64,000 bases of DNA, taken from contig JABAKD010000013.1 in assembly GCA_012845835.1 (NCBI GenBank), forward strand, positions 14,097,665 through 14,161,664. The letters are read 5' to 3'. Below the pieces are notes generated by a model, which saw only the letters and a program-made list of their open reading frames with translations, did no database searches and was not told the origin of the DNA. This document shows, piece after piece, positions 17,837 to 59,448 of this stretch (positions are counted from its first letter, which is position 1; every line of letters starts with the position of its first letter). Position numbers and translations under genes: made by a program. This DNA comes from Undaria pinnatifida. Lineage: Eukaryota; Sar; Phaeophyceae; Laminariales; Alariaceae.

Positions 17837-18496
17837 TGTTATAAGGCTTAGTTTGGGTAAGCTATTGGTTAACCTTTTGCAAGTGGTCAAACGGACTAAT
17901 ACCCCACAAAGTCCTTAACAAATGGCGTCGTCGACAGACCATGGGTTTTTGGGTCGTGGGTTCGATCCCCACATCCACCATAATAAACTTTTTCAGATTT
18001 TCCCCATGGCGAACTTGAAAATACTCTCCCGGGTATACCTAGGAAATGAAACGGCTTGGATATTGACAGAGGTCCGCCGTATATCCGGCCGATCTGCTAT
18101 CCCGCCGTTTCAGGGGGGGAGAGTGTTATAAGGCTTAGTTTGGGTAAGCTATTGGTTAACCTTTTGCAAGTGGTCAAACGGACTAATACCCCACTAAAGT
18201 CCTTAACAAATGGCGTCGTCGACAGACCATGGGTTTTTGGGTCGTGGGTTCAATCCCCACATCCACCATAATAAACTTTTTCAGATTTTCCCATGGCGAA
18301 CTTGAAAAATACTCTTCCTGGTATCCCCAGGAAATGAAACGGCTTGGATATTGACAGAGGTCCGCCGTATATCCGGCCGACCTGCTATCCCGCCGTTTCA
18401 GGGGGGGAGAGTGTTATAAGGCTTAGTTTGGGTAAGCTATTGGTTAACCTTTTGCAAGTGGTCAAACGGACTAATACCCCACTAAATTCCTTAACA
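17837..18496 (+). mobile_element. TRIM-like miniature LTR element, LTR-internal-LTR-internal-LTR
   Basis: Three direct repeats of 84-85 bp (17837-17920, 18124-18208, 18412-18496) begin TGTTATAAGGCTTAG and end CCTTAACA, i.e. 5'-TG...CA-3'. Two internal segments of about 203 bp separate them. Each starts, two bases after the LTR, with TGGCGTCGTCGACAGACC, suitable as a tRNA primer-binding site, and ends in a purine tract (GGGGGGGAGAG) just before the next LTR. ACTC flanks the whole unit (17833-17836 and 18497-18500). There is no coding capacity. The internal part also contains GTGGGTTCGATCCCCAC then ATCCACCA, which looks like the T-arm and 3' end of a tRNA in sense orientation. Tandem TRIMs sharing LTRs are known from plants and arise by recombination. 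Confidence 0.75.
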
Positions 18497-18790
18497 ACTC
18501 ACAGAAGTTCCGAGCGGGTACAAAACATGCTGTACCCGTACCCGTACCCCGAGTCTTCTGGCACGGGTCGTCCGTCGCTCACAGAAGTTCCGCGTACGGG
18601 TATGAAAGTCTTCCAGAAGTTCCGGGTACAGGTATGAAAACCTTATGGAAGTTACTTCTAGAAGTTCCATTTCTTATGGCACGGGGGTGCAGAAATTACA
18701 AAAGTTCCGGGGACAGGTATGAATGTCCGGGGACAGGTATGAATGTCCTGCAGAACTTACAGAAGCTCCGGGTACTGGTAAACACCGAGT
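18497..18790. repeat. Degenerate minisatellite with ACAGAAGTTCCGGGTAC units
   Basis: Irregular repeats of CAGAAGTTCCG, GGGTACAGGTATGAA and GTCCGGGGACAGGTATGAA. Related units (ACAGAACTCCCAGAAGTTGG) lie just left of the TRIM at 17757-17815, so the TRIM appears inserted within this array. Confidence 0.6.
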
Positions 18791-35620: not shown

Positions 35621-36640
35621 ATAAATATCGTGTTTTCTGGGTCTGCGGCGTGTATGTGCTGGTAGGTGTCGCACGCTCACGGAGACCTGATCGAATTTAA
35701 GACTATGATGAAGAAACCCGGGCTGTGTTTCATTTCAGCAACATTTTTGAAGGAGACACAAACACTCTCCGCACGGCAAAAGTACCCACCCTCCTCTCCT
35801 GCAGATGCATAGATGCATACCACTCCATTGCGCTGTTGAAGAAAGCCACAACGTGAGAGTGGTGCGATTTGGTTTCGTCGCCGTAGCAGCACGAAGAACG
35901 ATAAAGAGCTGGCAGTCTACTGCCATGGTGAACCTCGAACCTGCTGCGACAATAGCAAATGAGTCTTCCGCTATGAAATGGTTTCTGTAGCTTATCCTGA
36001 TGTTGTGTCAACAGGATCATTCAAACTTAACAGGTGCCTGATAAACGTTTTTTAAATATAATCATTCTAACGTCAGCTGTGAGTTCGACAAATCTAGGGC
36101 CGATACTCGTATTTGCAGGTTGCAATATTAAACATTCGCAGTGTGCAGCAATAAAACCAGTAAAATCTTATCAATAGTAATAATGGTGGTAAGCCTGCAC
36201 TTCACCATGATGATGACATCAACGCGTTTGTTGTTCGGATGCTCTTTTATTTTGCAGGATAGCTCAAAGGGTGCACGCGTAAACGCCACAAATCAACAGC
36301 ATGTCCTCGGAAAGCAACGCCTTCGTTGGAGCTGCGAAAAGTACTGCAGCGAGAGGGTGCTTCATATACGAGGGAGACCGGGCCGTGAACGAATACCTGC
36401 AGTTCCATTTCGGAAGGTGACGCTGGTCGATCGTCTGAACGAGTACGCCAGACCTCTACAACACCCGCCGTACACAAGAATAGCAGCATCGTCACCCTTC
36501 TTTTGTGTGACACAACTTGGTCGGTCCGTTCGTTCCTCAAGCATGTATGCTTTTTAACCCTTTTAGAGCCCCAAAATCACCCCTATACTAACTCCAAAGT
36601 GACTATGTCCCCAAAAGGACTTCCAGTTGGAAAAGCGTTA
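35621..36640. other. No recognised gene; contains a B2 core
   Basis: Overlapping frames on both strands (up to 138 residues, 36141-36557) lack known motifs. The B2 core lies at 36045-36130. Confidence 0.4.
36045..36130 (-). repeat. B2 element (relative of B1)
   Basis: The minus strand reads GCAACCTGCAAATACGAGTA then TTGTCGAACTCACAGCTGAC, matching the two tandem elements at 39.5-39.8 kb and, more distantly, the B1 core. Confidence 0.6.
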
Positions 36641-36659
36641 AGCGGAGCCACCTGCACTA

Positions 36660-38355
36660 TCTGCACTTTTGGTAGAAGCTCATGAAAGCTTCCATGGAAG
36701 CGATGGAAGCTTCCATGTAAGCATAGAAGCTTCAGCATGGAAGCTTCCATGGAAGCTTTCACACTTGCATGCCGTGGAAGCTTCCACGGAAACTTCTGTG
36801 GAAGCTTCCACAGAAACTTCCGTGGAAGTAACTTCCACGGAAGTTTTTCGTGGGAGCTAGAGAATTTACTTCCACGGAAGCTTCCATGAAAGCTTCCATG
36901 GAAGCTGCCACGAAAGTTACATTCACGGAAGCTTTCGTGGAAGTAAATTGCTTTCACGGAAGCTTTCGTGGAATAACAATAGCTCCCACGGAAGCTTTCA
37001 TGGACGTAAATTTGCTTCTACCGAAGCTTCCAGACTGGAGTAAATTTGCTTCCACGAAAGTTTTCACGAAACCTTTCACGGAACCTAGCCTTAACCCTTA
37101 ACCCTAACCCTTCGTTGTAGCTTTCGTGGAAGCTTTTTACCGAAGCTTTCTACCGAAGCTTTCAAACTGGAGTAAAATTGCTTCCACGAACGGTTTCATA
37201 GAAGCTTTCACGGAAGCTTTCACGGAAGCTATCGTGGAAGTAAATTGCTTTAATCGAAGCTTTCGCGGAAGTAACTATACTTCCACGGAAGCTTTCACGG
37301 AAGCTTTCACGAAACCTAACCCTAACCCCTATTCCTTCGTGGAAGCTTTCGTGGAAGCTTTCGTGGAAGTTACTTCCATGGAGGCTTTGGTGGAAGCTTT
37401 CGTGAAAGTTGTTTCCATGGGAGCTTTCGTGGAAATTACTTCCATGGGAGCTTTCGTGGAAGTTACTTCCATGGAAGCTTCCGTGGAAGCTTTCGTGGAA
37501 TCTCCCGTGGAAGTGCTACCGTGGAATCTTCCACTACTTCTATAGAAGCTTCCGTGGAAGCTTTCGTGGAAGCTACTTCCATGGAAGCTTTCGCGAAAGT
37601 TTCCGTGGAAGCTTGCGGGGTTGTTTTTGCGGTGAAGCTTCCATATCTTCCATGATAGCTTCCACGGAAGCTTTCATGAGCTACGCAAAACGGGCCACCT
37701 TCACTATCTGCATTTTTGGTGGAAGCTCGTGAAAGCTTTCATGGCGCTTCCGTGAAGGTCGTGGAAGCTTCCATGGAAGCGATGGAAGCTTCCATGGAAG
37801 CGATGGAAGCTTCCACGGAAGCAACTGCCACGGAAGCTTCCACATGAAAGCTTCCACGGAAGTTTCTATGGAAGAAACTCCCACGGAAGCTTCCACGAAA
37901 TCCTCCACGGAATCAACTTCCACGAAAGATTCCACGGGAGCAACTTCCACGGAGGCTTCCGTGAAAGCTTCTACGGAAGCAACCTAACGCTAACCCTAAC
38001 CCTAAGCTTCCATGGAAGTTACTTCCATGGAAGCTTTCATGACTTCCACGAAAGCTTCCTTTACTTCCATGGAAGCTTTCGTGGAAGCTTTCGTGGAAGC
38101 TCCCGTGGAATCTACCTCCACGGAAGCTTTCATATCTTCTATATCTTTCACGGAAGCTTCCACGGAAGCTTGCGGAAGCTCCCATGAAAGCTTCCGTGGA
38201 AGTTACTTCCATGGAAGCTTTCGTGGAAGCTTTCGTGGAAACTCCCGTGGAAGTTACTTCCGTCAAAGCTTTCATATCTTCCATATCTTCCATGGAATCT
38301 TTCATGAAAGCGGTGAAAGCTTCCACGGAAGCTTTCATGAGCTTCCACGCAAAAT
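36660..38355. repeat. Palindromic 12-bp satellite (AAGCTTYCRYGG)n with foldback-like ends
   Basis: Nearly 1.7 kb built from AAGCTT alternating with CCATGG, CCACGG or CCGTGG, so the unit is two adjacent (near-)palindromes. Because 12 bp is four codons and the unit contains no stop, frames on both strands encode tetrapeptide repeats (EAFV, KLPW, SFRG and similar) for up to 155 residues. Telomere-like motifs interrupt it near 37091-37112, 37316-37330 and 37982-38005. The segment GCCACCT.CACTATCTGCA..TTTTGGT precedes two blocks (about 36648 and 37694), and each block ends GGAAGCTTTCATGAGCT (37668 and 38328), the inverse of its start AGCTC.TGAAAGCTT. Two tandem foldback units are the simplest reading. 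I do not regard the ORFs as genes. Confidence 0.9.
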
Positions 38356-39481
38356 ACAAGTAGTGCCGGAGACCGCTCAAAAATCAAGTTGTGCAGGACA
38401 CCGTTGCAGCGAGGCAATGGTGCCCCTGGGATCTATTCGAGGGTTTACTACTGGTGTGTATGCATGAATGATTTTCCTCGAATCGTAACCTGCAACCGAC
38501 ATAGAGACCGTCACCACCTACGATGTGCGCGTTGGTATCACGCTGGTTCTCGATTTATTATTTATGTGGGTCCGTCTGCCGAGCTGGGTGTAGTCGCAGG
38601 CTCCTCAAAGCTCAGGGGTAAATATGTGGCGGTGCGTGTTTCTCGCTTAACCGCGAAAAAATACATGTCTACTTCGGTTACCTGGTAGCAGTACGTTTTA
38701 CAGTTCGAGCTAAAAGCATGCATGCTTGCATGTTAGTAACGAGTCCGAGAATATCGCAGAATGCCCTTAGACGTTTCAGGGCGATTTGCAGGAGAGCGGG
38801 CTACGGAAGCGATCCGTGTCGTACTTACTCGAGCAGTGCTGTTCATGGGTGTACAGTTAATGTAGCTGCAGGCAAGATCGCCCACATGATTGTAGCCGTT
38901 TCCGTTCAGAAACATGAGAATGCCCCCCCCCCAGCTTCTAGGCGTCATAACTATTGAAACTGGGCCAGTGTAGAGTGTGTGACCTCGGCAGAGGTGTACC
39001 TCTTTATGCTCGGAATAACCTTTGAACCGACCGTGGATCCACACGAGCAAGAGGAGAAGGTCAAGTTTATTAGCTTTCCTTGTAGGCAATTCGGGCGGTC
39101 GCCCAACACAATCAGGTGCCGAGTCCCAAACCAAACGCAATATCGACCGTGTTGCACAGCAGTAGAATCTTGGCGCCCGCCTGTTGATTCCGGTACACAT
39201 ACACATGTAATGTACGAAGCAATATTAAGAGTACAGGATACTTGTACATGATAGTCCGAAAGCGGTCACTAACAACGAAAGACTAACTTCCATTCGAGAG
39301 CGTCAGAAATCCTTACGCGGATACGCCGCCGTAACTATGAAACAAAATAAACCGCCTACCATACATACGACAGAGAAGTATACTGGAAACTACAGTAACA
39401 AATTTATAAAGCAGATGTGATGTTAGACGTAGCTCGAAATTCCCCACCTAAAGTAAAAATACCAACACTTTTACCATTATA
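38356..39481. other. No recognised gene
   Basis: Frames of 70-157 residues on both strands (e.g. 38733-39206 minus) have no motif I recognise. The missing 5' exons of the methyltransferase gene could lie here, but none could be picked. Confidence 0.35.
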
Positions 39482-39830
39482 GTGAACAAAAAATAGGACC
39501 CCTCCCAATAAAAACCTCACCCATATAGTATATTACAAGTACCAACAACGCAGCTTGCAAATATGAATATTCACCTGAAAATCGTCGAACTCACGTCTGA
39601 CGTCCTTGAAATATTTTTTATAAAATATGTAGACTATAGTCTATAGTCTACTCGTATAGTCTATATATGTGTTTGCCTTTTAACAGAACAATATGACCCC
39701 TCCCATTATGAAAAAAACTCACCCACATAGTATATAACGAGTACCAACAACGCAGCTTGCAAAGATGAGTATTAACCTGAAGTTCGTCGAACTCACGGCT
39801 GACGTCCTTGAAATATGTTTATAAATAAAT
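39482..39830 (+). repeat. Two tandem B2 elements, period about 205 bp
   Basis: Both units have ATAGGACCCCTCCCA or ATATGACCCCTCCCA, then CTCACCCA.ATAGTATAT, CAACAACGCAGCTTGCAAA and TCGTCGAACTCACG.CTGACG, ending CTTGAAATAT and TATAAA. Cores at about 39545-39620 and 39749-39826. Confidence 0.75.
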
Positions 39831-39988
39831 GTAAAGCAGACCTTTTTCTTAGCTGGAATCCCAGGCAGGGGCAGCATTCTTGCGTATCCTCCGTGCCGCC
39901 CTCTTCTACACGCACCTTGCGTCACTGCATGCCACTGATATGTAATAAGAATGCCATGCGAAACCTTAACCGCTTCCTTCTTGCCCAG

Positions 39989-42900
39989 GCCTGAAGAAGT
40001 AATGCCCTTCAAATGTGGCCCAATGGCGGACTTAGAGTTCACGAAGCGCGGGGCCGACCTCTGCATCAAGGCGATGGGGAGCAGCGAGGCAGTGACCGAG
40101 GGGCCGGCCAACGGACGTACCAAGGTACAGGCCAACAAACACTCCGAAGGACCGACCAACGGACAGTTCGAGGGACATGCTAACGGGCATACCGAAGGTC
40201 ACGCCAACGGGCATACCGAGGGACAAACCAATGGACACGCCGAGGGACACGCCAACGGTCATACCGAGGTGTCAAAACCGACGTCAAAGCAGCCCCTCCG
40301 TGCCCTGGATGTCGGGTGCTCTGTTGGAGGGGTCACGTTCGAGCTGACGAAAGGGTTTGAGGAGGTAAGTGACGGGGAGGGGGGGAGGGGGGGATTTTGA
40401 CTTAGTCTGATGGTGACTCAACCGGGTGAACATCTGAGGAAAACCCGCAGCCTGAAGTGGCGCCTACGGTGATTTCACTCGCCTCTTGCGGGTTGTCGCG
40501 TTTGTATCGCCGCGTCCGCGTGGGAGGAGGTCGAGGAGCATCCATATTGTTCGTTGTTGCTCGAGACGGCTGGATTCCTTGAGCGTCTTTTATTGAGTCC
40601 TCGGGTAGGACGAGGCCTCTCCCAAACAGATGGCACAATACCCTTGATAAGAAAGGCCTCTGCTGAAGTATTTTTGGTGTTGGTTAATAAATCACAAGCA
40701 CCTCGTGGCGTAGATATAACCTCTCATATATCGCCGTGGTCCATGCCGCGACATTGCTGTCTCTTTGACCATGATACCGCCCGCAGGTGGTGGGCGTGGA
40801 TTACTCAGCTAGGTTCGTCGAGACTGCCGAAACCATGAGAGTCAAGGGAAGGTACGATGCTGGAAAACCGCGTCGCCTTTCATACACGCTTGATCAGGAG
40901 AGAATCGAACTCATCCTACATCGTGTTATAACTCTCACGACCATCGCCTGTGAGCGTCTCCTAAAGAATCAGTGTACACCCTCCCCGTCTGACGCAGGCT
41001 CTCTTGGGGCTCGGTCTTTATGTCGACACCAAAACTAGCCGTAGAAGCATCAAACAAAACTCAGACTGCGCCTATGTACGCGCTGAGTCGGGCCGGTAGC
41101 CGTGCCTGTCGAGGTCGGAGACGCTCCCAGAAACTAGCACGTCCCCTCGCTTTTTCGATTATTGGTTTGGTTTGTGGAAACTTTGTCGGGAACACGCAGC
41201 GGGCTAATTAGTAAGAAGGGTGAACAACGCGTCGCGCGAAGCGTTCGGTCAACCTCTGCGAACGCCATGCTGTGGTGATGCTGTCCCTCAAGTTACGGAG
41301 TCTGCGCCCGCCCCGATTCGTCCCAGTTTCAATCTGCCCGGACCTTGTTCATTTTTTTGTGGAACACCCCTTACAGGATGGAGTACCAGTGCCTAGAGCA
41401 GGGATCAGCGACTCTGCGTAGGGAGGCGGTTCTTCCCGCCGGTGCGATTCCCTCTCGAGCTCGGTTTGAGCTAGGGGACGCCTGCGCTCTGGACGTGGAG
41501 ACCCTAGGGTCATTTGACGCCGTCATCGCCAGCAACATTCTCTGTCGGTGCGTGGCACAACAACATACATGTGTATAGCCTGAACCCGGTGACATATACC
41601 TGTAGACTACGTACACATGTGCTTGATTACCGCTGGGCCTTTCAACCCCTGCTGCCGCTGCTAACGAACGAACAACTGCACGTAGTAGTAGGCGAACCAA
41701 TTTTAGCGTTATGGAATGAAATTTAACCAAGATGGATATTCGGTTTCGTCTCACAGCCATGTCCGTGGTGTGTCCTCGCTACGCTGTCGGCTGGCGTGAG
41801 TTCGAGCGCCCTTCGTCTTCGGGAGCACGTTTCACACACGATAAGTGGTGGGATCTGTCACATGGGTAATTATGACGAATGCATCCTGCACTTCCTTGAG
41901 TGCACGCTCAGACTCTCCTATAGACGCTGTTGCTGCTAGTGGTGGGGATATTTGCAAGAATGATGATGGTGAGTATGATGGTAATGATGCTGCTGTTGAT
42001 TATAATGATGATGAAGATGAAGACAACAATCTGATAATGATGATGAGCATGATGATGACAAGGACGATCATGCTGTTATGTTCCGGCGTGTTCTTGCCCC
42101 AGGCTCCAGAAACCTCGGGCGTTTCTGGTGGATCTTGCCGCGCTTGTCAAGCCCGGCGGAGTGGCGGTGGTAATATCGCCGTATTCATGGCAAGCCGAGT
42201 ACACCGACCCCTCTGTAAGAATGGTGGCAGCGATGCGGCGGTAGTTAAGTTGGGCTTGTTAGACCGGTTATGATATGCGCGCCGTGATAGACTGCAAGTT
42301 CCTTCGAGTTGACGAATGACAGGGCGAACAGGTCGGGGGGGGCGGGGGGCGGGGCACCTAGCGGTGTGTTGGAACGAGTGGAAAAGGGAGACGTTTCTGG
42401 GTTATTTTTTAGTGTGGGTGCACCCAAAACGTGACACAAATTACGGACGATATCCAACAACTTCATGACACAAGTTACCGACGGCAAGGGGATTCGTGAC
42501 AAAAAACTCCTAAAACATGATATGTTCACCTGACAGAATCTCGAGACAAAACCAAGCAATAGAGCCTTCTATTCGGCCTTTGGCTTTTTTTTTTTTTTTT
42601 TTTTAATCCTCCGGCGGATGGGGAAAAATAAAGCTTTAGCTCACCACACTTCCGCGTATTTTCATACGCGTCGTGTGTCGATTTAACTCAGTTGCTTTCG
42701 CAGCCCAACGCTAGCTGGCGCACCCTTCGAATCCCATTGTAGCCTTTGGCGCTGGCTTTAGCACGGTCGCTGACACTCAGGCAGCCTCTGCTGCAGGCAT
42801 AGACGAGTGCGGTTGATCCGCATCGAACTATTTCGCTGTGCTCGCTTCTCTGTGGCCATAGTCCATGTCATTTCATGTCACCTTCTTTTTTCCCAAGGGA

Positions 42901-44602: not shown

Positions 44603-44995
44603 TTGCGCCCGAGCTTCGCTGGCTATTGCTGCGACGTTAGGAGTGCCGGCAGGCAGGGCGGGTTTCAGGTTCCGCTGTTGCGTTGTGCTGTCATGTGGTT
44701 TACATCTGTTCTAACCGTAGCGAGAAGTCATACCGTGGCACACGGAGATGAGGGGCTCTGGTCATGTCAGTTTCCGCAACTCGCCGTTGGTATTTTAGTG
44801 GGATTTTCGTGTGGAAATGCTGCTGTTGGCAGAAGTGCCCTATTATCCCCTTTACAACTGAAAACCCGTTTTGGGGGGCAAAATTACTTGGATTTAGTAT
44901 AGAGAGGGGTTTGGGGGCTCTAAAGGGGTTAATTAAGGAGAACAGAAAACTATGGAGAGCCCGCGGTTTTCTGGTATATGAAGCTTTTAAAGGGA
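44603..44995. other. 3' flank of the methyltransferase gene
   Basis: No second gene recognised. No clear AATAAA signal was found close to the stop. Confidence 0.4.
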
Positions 44996-53025: not shown

Positions 53026-53557
53026 TGTTCGTGATAGCGGCATGTATGTATCAACTGTACTGCGGTGAAACTCTGATTGGTTGGTTTGAATAGCAGAACT
53101 GTTGATTGTATGTTGTTGTACCAGAATACTCTTCTTGTGGTGCTACGGTACTTCGGTAGATTGTACATGTGCACGAGTTATACATCGGACCGTAGTGGTG
53201 TGTACGGTACGTTGGTATGTCGGTACGTTGGACACATTGACGAATAGGAACATTCCTGTAGTGTTGCTAACACGATATAGCTTGTCTCAACGAACAGCCT
53301 AGCAATAAGTTACAGTTACATACGTTGTGTCACGGAGGTAAGTTACAGGGATCGTCTCGTGGTATCACCCACGAGCAGTCCCACGGGTATGTACGAGTAG
53401 GCACTATGCGAGGAGGTTTAGGTATTCGACTACGAGCGGTTGTTACTGGGCTGTGGAGAGTTGGCCCACATGACCCACTCCACTTTCTGACCTGTCTCTC
53501 CAGACATTGGTCTCTCTAATATAATACCTTTCTCCAGAAGCCACTGATTTACCAACA
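53026..53557 (+). repeat. Copia 5' LTR
   Basis: Begins TGTTCGTGATAGCGG and ends GATTTACCAACA. 532 bp, identical by eye to 58917-59448. The 60-70-residue ORFs in it are duplicated in the other LTR only because the LTRs are identical. Confidence 0.95.
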
Positions 53558-53645
53558 CGCTATAGCGCTATCGGTCGACTGCTGTACGTCCCCCTGGACT
53601 GTGTGCGACGAGACTGTGAGGGCGGCTTGATCAACCGGCCTCGTC

Positions 53646-54287
53646 ATGGCTGAACAGGAGGGAGGTGACCCTGCGGCAAACCAACAGGGTGACCCGCAGG
53701 GCTTTGGTGAGAGAATGGATTCCTTAGAGTCTCGAGTGTCTCAAATGCTGGATATGTTTTCTAACCAGCAGCAGATGCTCCAGACAGTTGTTGAGACACA
53801 CCAGAGGGAGAATGTGGAATCCTCTAGTTCGCGTGCTGCGCCGCGAGGCATCGAACTAGATTCTGGTGTGCACCAATCGGGTGCTGCCGGTAGGACCGCG
53901 GGGAGTACGGGAGGCGATACCCTAGGCTTTGGCGTGTCCGACATGAGGGTTGGGAGTAGGGGTGTTGTAGACCCAGGCTTGAACCCGCGTGTTTCTGATG
54001 AGAATCGTTCCTCTGTTCCTGCAGTAAACTTTGGTTCAGTTGACGGGACTGTTGGTGGGGCTTTAGGTAGCCAGTCCTCTGTTCCGCCCACTACCTCAGC
54101 AAGTGAGTGGTGGGGAAAAGTCGCTAGTGGGAACACACTGATCCCAGCGGCTGACAGTAGTTCGGGGGGGAGCTTGGGTGGGGTCTTTTCAAGAAAGTTC
54201 CCAAGGCTCCTGAATTTATCGGTACTGATGTATCGTATCCTTCATGGTCGCAGAATTTTCTGCTCAAAGCTCGTCACTACAATCTGA
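53646..54287 (+). pseudogene. Copia gag, N-terminal part, ends after a frame change
   Basis: ATG at 53646 opens a Gly/Ser-rich gag start (EGGDPAANQQGDPQGFGERM, then a coiled region LESRVSQMLDMFSNQQQML). Near the G7 run at 54164-54170 the sensible frame moves by one base: the downstream frame reads FKKVPKAPEFIGTDVSYPSW, while this frame runs on to a spurious stop at 54287. Loss or gain of one G, true or a sequencing error, would explain it; ribosomal slippage on the G run is less likely but possible. Confidence 0.8.
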
Positions 54288-57200
54288 GCGAGTCGTTCAC
54301 CTGTGATATCGACATTAAAATCGCCGACGTTAATTTCGACTTGACCCCTCGGGTAGAGAAGGGATACAGCGTTGGTGTACTGCGTCAGCATGAGATTGCT
54401 TGGTGGTTTCTGTTCGACTGCTTGAAGAAAGACAGCCACAAAAACATGGCAAGGCAAGCTGGTTCCCCGTATAAGGCTTTTCGCGCGCTCAAGGATCACT
54501 TTCTACCGTTGAGTCAGAGTCAAATTCGAGTGCAGGAAGAAAAACTGAAGTCTCTGCGCATGCGTCCCCACGAGAATCCCACAACTTTCTTTTCATCCAT
54601 CAGAGAGACGCTTGGTGTGTTGACCATGCTTGAAGTAACGAAGGATGATCATGAAGTGTGCAATCTCATGCTGGAAGGACTGTCCCCCGAGTACAAGACT
54701 TTACGTGAGACTCTTGTGGTGTTCTGTTCGAATGACCCCTCTTTCATCGAGACCAAAGTGCGTGAGCGGTACCTAGACTTGCAAGCACAGGGTGGTTCTA
54801 AGAAGCAAAATAGTGTTGCTCTGGTGTCTAGGCCTGCGAAGAAGAAGAGTAACTTCAAGAAGCACAACAAGCAGAAGTCTAACTCTGAGTCTGATTCCTC
54901 GAAGAAGTCTTTTCAGGGGAGGTGTCGCAAGTGTGGGGAGGTGGGTCACATGAAGCTCGACTGCAAGGCTCGCGTCATCCCTCATCCTTCGCAGACTGGA
55001 AAGCCCGAGGCCGACGAGAATGAGAGCGGTGAGCAGTGTGCTATTCCTGATTCGGATCTGGTGTGCAGAAATGGTAGTTACCGCATGAGTGATGACTGCC
55101 AAAAGGTGTTGCTTGCAGCATGTCGTAAGGAAGTGGTCTTGAAGGCGTGTGATGATTTGAGTAGGATGTGGTATGATGTCTCTGGTCTGAAGTGTCTGAT
55201 GACGTCCCGTGATGATCTGATTATGAGCGCCGTCAGTAATGATATGATCCTGAAAGCTGTCAACAAGGATAGATATGTCGAGGATTGGTATGCTGACACA
55301 GGCACTTCATATCACATGACTGATTCCCTGTCTTGCATGAGAGACTTGAAGCCTTGCCACAGAAGTGTGAATGGAATTGGTGGCGTGTCTTGTGAAGTAG
55401 CTTACTCCGGAACGCTAGACTTGGTATTTGTGACTGCCGACAGTGAGTTCTCCGTGGAATTGAAGAACGTATTGTACTCTCCCAACTTGGGGTATAATCT
55501 CTTTTCTCCGAGTGCTGAGTTTGATGGTGAGTCATGGAATGGTCTTGGTGGTCCTAATGGTGTTATGACTGCATTCAATGGACAAGTAACTTTTCAGAAC
55601 TTCGATGGCATGCTGATTGCGTCTGCGTATCGCCTAGGAGAAGCCTGTGTTGGTACGGTGTTGGCTGCTCTCACTCCCGCCAACCCCAAGCATGAAACTA
55701 CGATGGATATCAACAATTTCCACAATATTTATGCACATTCGCACGAGGGTCTGCTTCGCACTACTGCAAAGCGATTAGATACCAAGTTGGTTGGTGACAT
55801 GCATGCTTGTTCAGGGTGTTCGATGTCGAAGGCTATTCGGAAAGGAATCGTTCGGGAAACTAAACCTCGATCGGATAAAAAGTTGGGCAGAGTTTTTGTT
55901 GACCTGGGAGGAAGGAAGGACATTGCGTCCGTAGGGGGAAAACATTACCCCATGATTGTGAAGGATGATTTCACGAGACGTGCATGGCTGTATTTCCTGA
56001 AAAATAAATCAGACGCTGGCAGTGCTTTCCGGAGTTTTCTTGCGAGTGTGCGTGCTGATGGTGTCCCGTCATTGGTTGAGATTGTTAGGTCTGACAATGG
56101 TGGGGAGTTTTTCGGGGGGGGGTTTGCATCTGTGTGCAACGAGCTTTTGATCAAACAAGAGTTCACACCGGCTTATAGTCCGCAATATAATGGTGTTGCA
56201 GAGCGTGGGCTGGGATTGATAGAGGAGGCCGCGATGGCGGCTCGTATTCAAGCTTAAGTTCTTTTTGGGCATGTACATTTACCTAAGACTGATAAACTCT
56301 GGGCTGAGGCTATGCACTGGGCTTGCGAAGCGATGAACCACACTGCGTGTTCTGCTAACCCTGAATCCAAATCGCCGTATGAAATGTGGTATGGTGAACC
56401 TCGTCCCGCTAGACCGTATCCGTTTTTGAAGCCCGCCTACTGTAGGTGGCAGCGACCGTCAAAGCTGCTGCCGAAGGGTGAGAGTTGTTTCTATGTCGGT
56501 CCTTCGAGAGACCACCCGCGTGATTGTCATAGAGTACTTACGAGGGCTGGTACTATTCAAGAAACGAGGGATGTGACGTGGGAGGTGCTGCCGTCACAGC
56601 TCCCTCTGCTGCAACCTTCTTTGCCGATAGAGGTAGCAGAGGAGGGAGGGGAGGATAGTGACGACGATGTTGAAACCGAGATATGGCCGCTTGTGGGAAG
56701 AGGAGTCGCTCACACACTTTTGAAACGTGATGCCGTGCCCTCTGGTGCGGGAGTCGAGGAGGTTGAGAGTGTTGGCGCAGGTAGTATAGGCCCGTCCTTT
56801 TCTGTTCCATCTTCCCCTGCTGAACCGTCTGCCCCCGTGAACATTTCTTCTGGTAGTGTAGCTCCTTCTGTGTCTTCGCCTGTGAATGACGGGGAGGGCC
56901 AGGGAGGGCAGGAATCAGGAGAGGTAGAGATGGGGGATCTGGGAGGGGATGATGAGGTAGAGTCGATGGGGCAGGGAGGGCATGATGATGAAGAGTCGAT
57001 TGGGTCGGGAGGACTGGTAGAGGCGGAGGCATCCCCTCCAGCCGCTCGTCGTCCGCGGCATGTGGCCGAGCTTGCTGACTTTAATACTTCCGCGCGTGAA
57101 AATGATGAAGTGAGAGAAGGTAGGACTCGCGCGCAAACTCGTGCAGTCAACCAGCAGAGTGTACCCGGCCTCATGGCCACCCTAGGACCCATCTTCGCGA

Positions 57201-58831
57201 CAGAGGTCGTGTACTCATTGTTGTCGGAGCAGAGAGCAGGTGATGAGACGGAATTGCCGAAAGAACTGGTTCAGGATGTAGAATCGGAGCCTGGTAGTTA
57301 TCAGGAAGCCCCGCGTTCGAAGTACGCTGAGATTTGGGAAGGAGCCAGGTCTGCCGAAATTGAAGGCTTGATAAGAGCAGGAACGTTCACGTTGGCAGTA
57401 AAAGTCCCGATAGGCTGTAATGTGATTGATGCTAGATGGGTTTTCTAGTGGAAAGCAGACGAAACAGGAAAGATAGTGAAGGCCAAGGCTAGGCTTGTAG
57501 CGAAGGGCTTCAAGCAGAAGTATGGTGTGGATTATCTTGAGACATTCTCGCCTACCGCAAATGCTGCATCTTTACGATTGCTGATAGTGTTGGCGTGTTT
57601 GTACAATTTGGAATTACTCCACTGGGATATTGAGCAAGCATTTGTTCAGTCGGAATTGGATCACGAGGTGTTCATGAAGTTGCCTCCTGGCTGCGGGTCG
57701 ATGTCAGGAAAGGTTGTCCGTTTGAACAAGAGTTTGTACGGATTGAAGCAGGCTTCTAGGACATTTTACAAGAGGCTGGTGTCGGAACTGAAGAGGACTG
57801 GTTTTGAGCAGTCAATGTCTGACCCCTGTGTCCTGCGTTTCATGATGGGAGACGAGGTATTGGGGATGGTCGCGATCGACGTGGATGACATTCTGTATGC
57901 AGGAAGTAACAGCCTTGCCAAGGTGGTTGTGGCAGCACTAGGTGACTCTCTTCCTACGAAGGACTTGGGGGAGATCAAGTTCTTTCTAGGTTGTGAATAT
58001 ATTCGCGACCGTGAGGCTGGTACGATTGAGATTTCTCAGGAAAGTTATATCAGGAGTGTTCTCGAGAGATTCAATATATGTCGCACCAGCTCGATCCCTG
58101 CTTCCCTTGCCAATGATAACAGGTCCGTGATGGAGGATGAGGGGGCAGGAGATGTGCCGTTCCGAGTGGTGGTGGGGAGCCTGATGTGGATTGCCAGCCA
58201 GACAAGGCCCGACATCGCGAATGCTGTGCGGGCGGTGGCGAGGCACTCTGACGAACCAAAGAGGAGCCACTGGAAGGCAGCTCAGAAGATTCTCAATTAT
58301 CTTCTGGAAACGGCGCATCTGACTTTGAAGTTCAAGCAGGATAGTTCGGTAGACGCAGGCACGGTGGTGTATGTAGATGCTGACTTTGCAAGTAGGGCCA
58401 CTGACCGTAGATCAGTTTCGGGTGCGATGGTTTTCGTGGCGGCGATGCTTGTAGTTTGGATTTCTAGGACGCAGAAATGCGTTTCACAGTCAACTTCAGA
58501 AGCAGAGTATCTTGCGATGGGAGATGGTGTAAAGGAGGCTCTGTTTGTAAACGGAATGCTTCAGTTCCTGAGGCCTAGTGCGAAGCCTCGTAAGATAGAT
58601 GTCCTTGAAGACAACGAGGGAGCGATTGCGCTCGCAGAGAACCCGCTGAGCTCTAGTAGGAGTAAGCACATCGATGTGAGGCACCACTTTCTTAGGAATC
58701 TGACCGAGGAGGGTGTGATCGAAGTCACCCACGTCCCCAGCGAGAAACAACACGCGGACATCCTCACGAAGGCGTTGCCGAGAGATCTTTTTGAAGTTCA
58801 CCGCGACTTTGCACTTGGTATCAAGAAGTAG
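54188..58831 (+). pseudogene. Copia gag-pol polyprotein with two in-frame stops
   Basis: One frame carries the rest of gag (RVEKGYSVGVLRQHEIAWWF), the zinc knuckle CRKCGEVGHMKLDC (54923-54964), protease WYADTGTSYHMT (about 55285), integrase with an H/H/C/C segment (55730-55830), FVDLGG, VRSDNGGEF and YNGVAERG (D, D, E), RT with AKARLVAKGFKQKYGVDYLE, LNKSLYGLKQASRTFY and IDVDDILYA (about 57872-57898), and RNase H with VDADFASRATDRRSVSG and SEAEYLA, stop at 58829-58831. TAA (56255) cuts at the end of the integrase core; TAG (57446) cuts just before the RT. Catalytic residues look intact, so only these lesions prevent expression. Confidence 0.92.
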
Positions 58832-58916
58832 AAGTCTGAGTCGTTTTGTTTTTGTTTTTGTTTGATATGTATTTGGTCTGGTAGATACAACAGCCCCGAG
58901 GGAGGGTGTTCGTGAT

Positions 58917-59448
58917 AGCGGCATGTATGTATCAACTGTACTGCGGTGAAACTCTGATTGGTTGGTTTGAATAGCAGAACTGTTGATTGTATGTTGTTGT
59001 ACCAGAATACTCTTCTTGTGGTGCTACGGTACTTCGGTAGATTGTACATGTGCACGAGTTATACATCGGACCGTAGTGGTGTGTACGGTACGTTGGTATG
59101 TCGGTACGTTGGACACATTGACGAATAGGAACATTCCTGTAGTGTTGCTAACACGATATAGCTTGTCTCAACGAACAGCCTAGCAATAAGTTACAGTTAC
59201 ATACGTTGTGTCACGGAGGTAAGTTACAGGGATCGTCTCGTGGTATCACCCACGAGCAGTCCCACGGGTATGTACGAGTAGGCACTATGCGAGGAGGTTT
59301 AGGTATTCGACTACGAGCGGTTGTTACTGGGCTGTGGAGAGTTGGCCCACATGACCCACTCCACTTTCTGACCTGTCTCTCCAGACATTGGTCTCTCTAA
59401 TATAATACCTTTCTCCAGAAGCCACTGATTTACCAACACGTACAAAAG
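58917..59448 (+). repeat. Copia 3' LTR
   Basis: Same 532 bp as the 5' LTR, directly after the polypurine tract and followed by the target duplication CGTAC. Confidence 0.95.

Follow-up and report, generated by a model that had tools for sequence, protein, structure and literature searches.

A palindromic 12-bp array in the Undaria pinnatifida genome as the arms of a probable non-autonomous foldback transposon family

Positions 36660–38355 of the window, as we call the whole 64,000-nucleotide stretch of Undaria pinnatifida contig JABAKD010000013.1 analysed here, carry a short-unit array that reads much the same on both strands. A first-pass annotation took it for a 12-bp satellite, open in most or all reading frames, and the question arises whether such a sequence is a satellite, a gene, or a component of something larger. 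We consider it very probable that the array belongs to a dispersed family of foldback DNA transposons, non-autonomous and MITE-like, that has opposed arms of 12-bp units around a telomere-repeat core and is presumably moved in trans. The family shows defined, sharply bounded ends, arms of opposite direction, and a conserved core, and its copies have target duplications as well as empty sites.

The repeat unit and its array

In the whole window, 89 matches to GGAAGCTTYCRYGGAAGC, a degenerate 18-base unit searched with at most two mismatches, were found, all of them at 36684–38336, compared with 0.03 in shuffled sequences; likewise, 54 of the 66 AAGCTT sites of the window fall within 36660–38355. 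The array unit combines the 10-bp palindrome GGAAGCTTCC with a dinucleotide, which is mostly AC, GT, or AT (24, 24, and 17 of the 67 strict GGAAGCTTCC sites, respectively, the other two having GC). This composition confirms the annotated 12-bp unit that is nearly identical to its own reverse complement, and because the units are almost self-complementary the array looks palindromic at every scale. A spacing of exactly 12 bp between AAGCTT sites is found in a minority of the intervals within 36660–38355 (11 of 53), TRF calls overlapping arrays by the dozen, whose periods range between 12 and over 100 bp, and the array contains internal direct duplications (families D4 and D8). That the array is an assembly artefact, a possibility raised in the first-pass annotation, is unlikely, since its longest exact direct repeat measures 38 bp and the family recurs genome-wide.

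Several other interpretations were abandoned. An origin of the AC, GT, and AT dinucleotides by CpG decay was unsupported (observed/expected CpG of 0.92 in the array vs. 0.98 in the window), and the idea of heat-shock-factor sites was dropped, as the triple site TTCnnGAAnnTTC or its reverse is absent from the array. A local search yielded no tRNA and no Rfam family at gathering score, and a 22-base search pattern had no match in viral contigs. The lone match to this pattern in a collection of genome contigs, located on a Verrucomicrobiales MAG contig without a tandem array, was taken as chance.

Family copies, ends, and target sites

A genome-wide search, conducted with the 18-mer GGAAGCTTCCATGGAAGC on 511,146,479 bp in 68 contigs, revealed a dispersed sequence with 490 + 498 exact places, compared with 2 + 2 for the reversed control. 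A query comprising 38320–38470, which covers the right end, had at least 41 matches of 91–100% identity, mostly starting at query positions 84–97 and thus at the end of the element, and the sequence beyond this end differs between the matches. This search scored 40 of 527 first-look candidates, and 30 loci were retrieved; as these are the best-scoring ones, young copies are over-represented among them. A left end was present in 28 of the 30 loci, in 15 cases within the first stretch retrieved and in 13 after longer stretches had been taken, and no left end was within reach at the remaining two (L048 and L055). Together with L005, which derives from the 18-mer search, these form a set of 29 two-ended copies of 587–2342 bp, including the element B of the window (L010). 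Within this set, L011 has two possible left ends, either of which was used across the analyses.

In this set, positional agreement over the first 20 bases is 0.90–1.00 at the left end and 0.79–1.00 at the right end, compared with 0.28–0.62 for the 20 bases outside, and conservation ends at one exact base on each side. The two ends form terminal inverted repeats, GGGCCACCTGCACTATCTGCATTTTTGGTGGAAGCTC and, inverted, CGGTCTCCGGCACTACTTGCATTTTGCGTGGAAGCTC, whose consensuses agree at 39 of 48 positions, so that inverted terminal repeats as in foldback-type elements are present at both ends. Exact 8-bp target duplications flank 15 of the 29 copies (shuffled partners: mean 0.52, maximum 5 in 5000), and the 8-bp flanks match at seven or more positions in 19 copies and at six or more in 24, leaving five below 6/8 (L011, L016, L019, L045, and L046). 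A maximal exact word of 6, 7, 9, or 10 bp was found for none of the 29 copies, and the duplications hence have the constant length seen in foldback-type elements. In one of the five poorly matching copies, the 2220-bp L046, the two flanks do not form a direct duplication; GAATTGTG is the exact reverse complement of CACAATTC, which may reflect chance or a rearranged insertion. Target duplications of about 8 bp are made by the hAT, P, KDZ, and Merlin superfamilies; the strictly 8-bp duplication found here agrees with this length and fits several superfamilies.

Filled and empty sites could be compared by means of paralogous sites for five of the 29 copies (L005, L015, L020, L045, and L047). For this purpose, the joined flanks minus one duplication were compared with element-free repeats at a cut-off of 75%, below which L034 (71%) remained. 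The joined flanks of L047 align over 299/300 nt at 88% to window positions 18152–18452, within a tandem repeat seen at 17865–18452. This part of the window belongs to a 288-bp tandem repeat (17837–18497, 2.3 copies, 97% matches), a relative of which elsewhere is the L047 landing site. With the joined flanks of L010 and L011, the match is to the locus of the copy itself, as is expected if each sits inside another copy.

The array is thus no satellite standing alone, as annotated, and mobile-element ends accompany it in the 29 copies; it represents the arms of a mobile element of the foldback type that has inverted ends and 8-bp duplications and for which paralogous empty sites exist. An ordinary mini- or other satellite that expanded locally by slippage and was then spread by duplications of larger segments would account for the many overlapping short-period arrays found by TRF, for the internal direct duplications, and for the arm lengths that vary between copies of 587–2342 bp, but is at odds with ends that stay constant while their flanks do not match, with the exact target duplications of 8 bp, and with the empty sites, and we regard it as very unlikely. 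To our knowledge, rolling-circle elements make no such target duplications. These, together with the paired inverted ends in the 29-copy set, leave next to no probability that the array is satellite cargo of a rolling-circle (Helitron/Helentron) element, a kind of carriage that is the topic of a Pacific oyster paper in the part covered here (PMC7492417).

The arms provide further support for a foldback element. The palindrome GGAAGCTTCC reads alike on both strands, whereas AC on one strand is GT on the other; it is therefore the dinucleotide that orients a unit. Summed over 25 copies, left arms contain 495 AC and 61 GT units and right arms 170 AC and 489 GT units, and all 25 copies show the same sense; this count excludes L049, in which the run has the other direction, and three copies that have no core run. 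Short-repeat arms in opposite orientation around a core, as in foldback-type elements, were thus found in every testable copy. At the turn between the arms, 26 of the 29 copies have a CCCTAA run, and telomere-like 9-mers occur 143 times in 44,919 bp inside the elements vs. five times in 134,107 bp outside. Most cores have the form ...CCACGGAAGCAACC(TAACCC)n...AAGCTTCC... (L032 and L034 differ), and this similar junction in most copies points to one capture. One contig (C32) starts with CCCTAA repeats, 42 in 300 bases, and the other three contig starts sampled are non-telomeric. In L049, some 900 bp of unrelated sequence lie close to the right end, and the core reads TTAGGG from left to right. 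That the core is a working part, which for instance draws telomere-binding proteins or telomerase, protects or heals a break at the hairpin tip, or lets the element seed new chromosome ends, appears unlikely.

In this reading, a copy is built from a 48-bp imperfect inverted end, a left arm, a host-type telomere-repeat core, an oppositely directed right arm, and a second inverted end. A transposase made elsewhere would bind these ends, excise the element, and reinsert it with an 8-bp staggered cut, and slippage together with unequal exchange would lengthen or shorten the arms. The element is most readily understood as a parasite that is presumably mobilised by such a transposase in trans.

Elements A and B within a probable intron

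With the family ends at hand, the window could be resolved into the following features:

36417–39988, forward strand: probable intron (GT...AG, 3572 bp) holding A and B; the exon junctions keep the frame
36637–36644, forward strand: GTTAAGCG, possibly the left copy of a target duplication of A; weak, 5/8 match by eye with 38404–38411 (TTGCAGCG)
36645–38403, forward strand: element A, apparently interrupted by B; assigned by its match to the family left end, with the right limit set by the likeness of 38376–38403 to the family right tip
36645–36692, forward strand: left terminal inverted repeat of A, from the family end consensus
36693–37313, forward strand: left arm of A, mostly AC units of the 12-bp type (19 AC, 8 GT for 36640–37313)
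37085–37112, forward strand: additional telomere-like run of A, in its left arm and within an internal direct duplication
37314–37335, forward strand: telomere-like CCCTAA core of A, site of the predicted-fold loop and of the best orientation split
37336–37667, forward strand: right arm of A, GT (14 GT, 1 AC for 37314–37690)
37668–37691, reverse strand: inner part of the right terminal inverted repeat of A, apparently cut by B
37684–37691, forward strand: left target-duplication copy of B, CGCAAAAC, 6/8 match to 38376–38383
37692–38375, forward strand: element B (684 bp; copy L010)
37981–38004, forward strand: telomere-like CCCTAA core of B
38328–38375, reverse strand: right terminal inverted repeat of B, within the query (38320–38470) that found other copies
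38376–38383, forward strand: right target-duplication copy of B, CTCAAAAA
38384–38403, reverse strand: probable outer tip of the right end of A, displaced by B; read by comparison with the right end of the family

The annotated array is real, but its bounds of 36660 and 38355 clip the elements on both sides. The left end of A differs from the family left end by two or three mismatches in a 47-mer, and both its start at 36645 and its right limit at 38403 are direct readings of the sequence. A first indication of two elements with inverted ends, obtained before the genome search, was the 14-mer AGCTCRTGAAAGCT, which occurs perfectly at four window sites in the order +,−,+,−, one at each end of A and of B. 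It was picked for its position, and 20 of the 58 14-mers with four occurrences alternate in this way, most of these 20 overlapping AGCTCRTGAAAGCT. An unguided search for duplications flanking the array retrieved none beyond chance, and those recognised in the window are degraded (B 6/8; A 5/8, by eye). In A, the best AC/GT split lies at 37305/37335, on the CCCTAA run (42 units; permutation p 0.0008, Fisher 7.5e-5); an orientation switch in B alone was not significant (27 units; Fisher 0.12, permutation 0.28).

The inner part of the right end of A precedes B and sequence like its outer tip (38376–38403) follows, which suggests that B inserted there, and joining the flanks of B gives a sequence that aligns to the right end of B itself (76%, 359 columns). 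Judged from this arrangement, A appears to be the older element, with a younger B nested in its right inverted end, and A itself would lie inside the intron of a gene. The exons at 36301–36416 and 39989–40364 join in frame across this intron, and the joined exons match TIGR04345 ovoA_Cterm with an E value of 1.1e-19 and 70.9 bits, short of the curated whole-protein value of 170. The match comprises residues 139–187 of the joined product, downstream of the intron. The upstream 39-aa exon alone gave no match, and it may be OvoA-like, judged by motif likeness. Introns are present in genes of the window, and A and B probably sit within one of an OvoA-like methyltransferase gene.

Further repeats occur nearby. 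A coding repeat with a 24-bp period (GHANGHTEG-like) in the OvoA-like exon at 40096–40269 causes spurious FliH model matches. A repeat that starts with TTAACCC(C/T)TTTAGAGCCCC is found at 36554–36641 and, on the reverse strand, at 44843–44932; the two are 76% alike, the first ends just left of A, and they possibly represent a piggyBac-type end. A piggyBac end was also considered for the element itself, since its left flank at 36554, TTAACCCTTTTAGAGCCCC, recurs at 44932 on the reverse strand; a matching inverted end was not found, and the idea was dropped in favour of the true ends. At 53026–59440 lies a Ty1/copia-like element with matches to Pfam rve, RVT_2, and gag, whose end repeats (53026–53559 and 58907–59440, 534 bp each) are 100% identical and hence indicate a recent insertion; a copia reverse transcriptase as query had no relative in viral contigs.

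The capacity for hairpins and self-pairing that the first-pass annotation had anticipated was recovered as predicted RNA folding, with z values of −29.8 (991 nt) and −20.0 (676 nt) relative to 20 dinucleotide shuffles each. Predicted energies are −564 kcal/mol for A and −366 kcal/mol for B, and in each of three designs 0 of 40 block permutations was as low as A or B. In the predicted fold, the CCCTAA core of A (37314–37335) occupies a hairpin loop and that of B is unpaired. The fold was rejected as proof of the boundaries, because sliding segments across the A/B junction surpass both elements (−396 vs. −366 kcal/mol at 676 nt; −611 vs. −564 kcal/mol at 1044 nt); pairing in the cell, where hairpins may form, thus need not respect element borders.

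As to the reading frames, the window copy was not open as annotated: 36660–38355 has 13–24 stops in each of the six frames, 105 in total vs. 173 in base-shuffled sequence, and its AAGCTT sites are spread over the three phases (19/18/17). Long open stretches do exist in less decayed copies (705 codons in L043, 587 in L046), and the view that frames of such a unit are easily open was correct, since arrays of 31% of random 12-mers and of 49% of random self-complementary 12-mers are open in all six frames. Over 24 copies, 966 of 1107 AAGCTT intervals are divisible by three; apart from 12 bp, lengths of 21, 27, 30, and 39 bp are frequent. These multiples of three and the open stretches of L043 and L046 would suit a low-complexity repeat protein encoded on one or both strands. 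However, blocks measuring 12, 9, and 15 bp preserve the phase in any case and explain such spacing without coding, the window copy is interrupted by the stops just mentioned, and, with frames numbered from the right end, the longest open one may fall in any of the six (forward 7, 5, and 3; reverse 3, 3, and 3 of 24 copies, counted manually). With no single frame conserved, a conserved protein is extremely unlikely, and the open frames are a by-product of the repeat structure.

Related elements and significance

The first-pass annotation knew of no family with this architecture. In the parts of the literature covered here this holds for the sequence and the telomere-like core, but not for the design, as foldback elements with short tandem-repeat arms are known (Tm1; PMC3169594). 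The text search of the open-licence literature found no description of the element sequence or telomere-like core, and an unpublished or database-only name is possible; the main text of a 2025 survey of Ectocarpus transposons does not contain the word "foldback". What is new is the sequence family, its arms of self-complementary 12-mers, and the telomere-type core; the foldback design was already known.

The nearest element in design is Tm1 of root-knot nematodes, a Mutator/Foldback element. According to the part of its description covered (PMC3169594), Tm1 resembles the Undaria family in being non-autonomous, in size (one copy has 1080 bp), in its inverted ends that consist mostly of short tandem repeats (13–15 bp vs. 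12 bp here), in variable repeat numbers, and in direct target duplications. The repeat itself is unrelated (Tm1 consensus CGATTCAGTATCCGC), one Tm1 group contains a histone-hairpin motif between the repeats where telomere-like repeats are found here, and Tm1 duplications are mostly 9 bp (8–10) in contrast to 8 bp. Mutator duplications measure 9 bp (8–10), and those of this family strictly 8 bp. Drosophila Tetris and Galileo share long inverted arms with tandem repeats and non-autonomous copies, but their repeats measure about 220 and 210 bp instead of 12 bp, their duplications are 8–10 bp in Tetris and 7 bp in Galileo, a member of the P superfamily, compared with 8 bp here, and a telomere-like core as in the Undaria family is unmentioned in the parts of these papers covered (PMC4079207; PMC3573991). 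Tetris arms can feed satellite-like arrays, as stated in the same part of that report (PMC4079207). Interstitial telomeric sequences likewise are short telomere-type runs away from chromosome ends; in the section covered (PMC7215372) these are inserted at break repair, whereas here the run is copied within a mobile element.

Taken as a mobile family, the apparent palindromic satellite finds an explanation, and tandem-repeat finders scatter such an element into many short arrays. Host-type telomere repeats inside a transposon, as in 26 of the 29 copies, provide a concrete route for the spreading of telomere sequence through chromosomes. Finally, the family offers a natural series of very strong predicted intronic hairpins that may bear on splicing, small RNAs, and genome stability.
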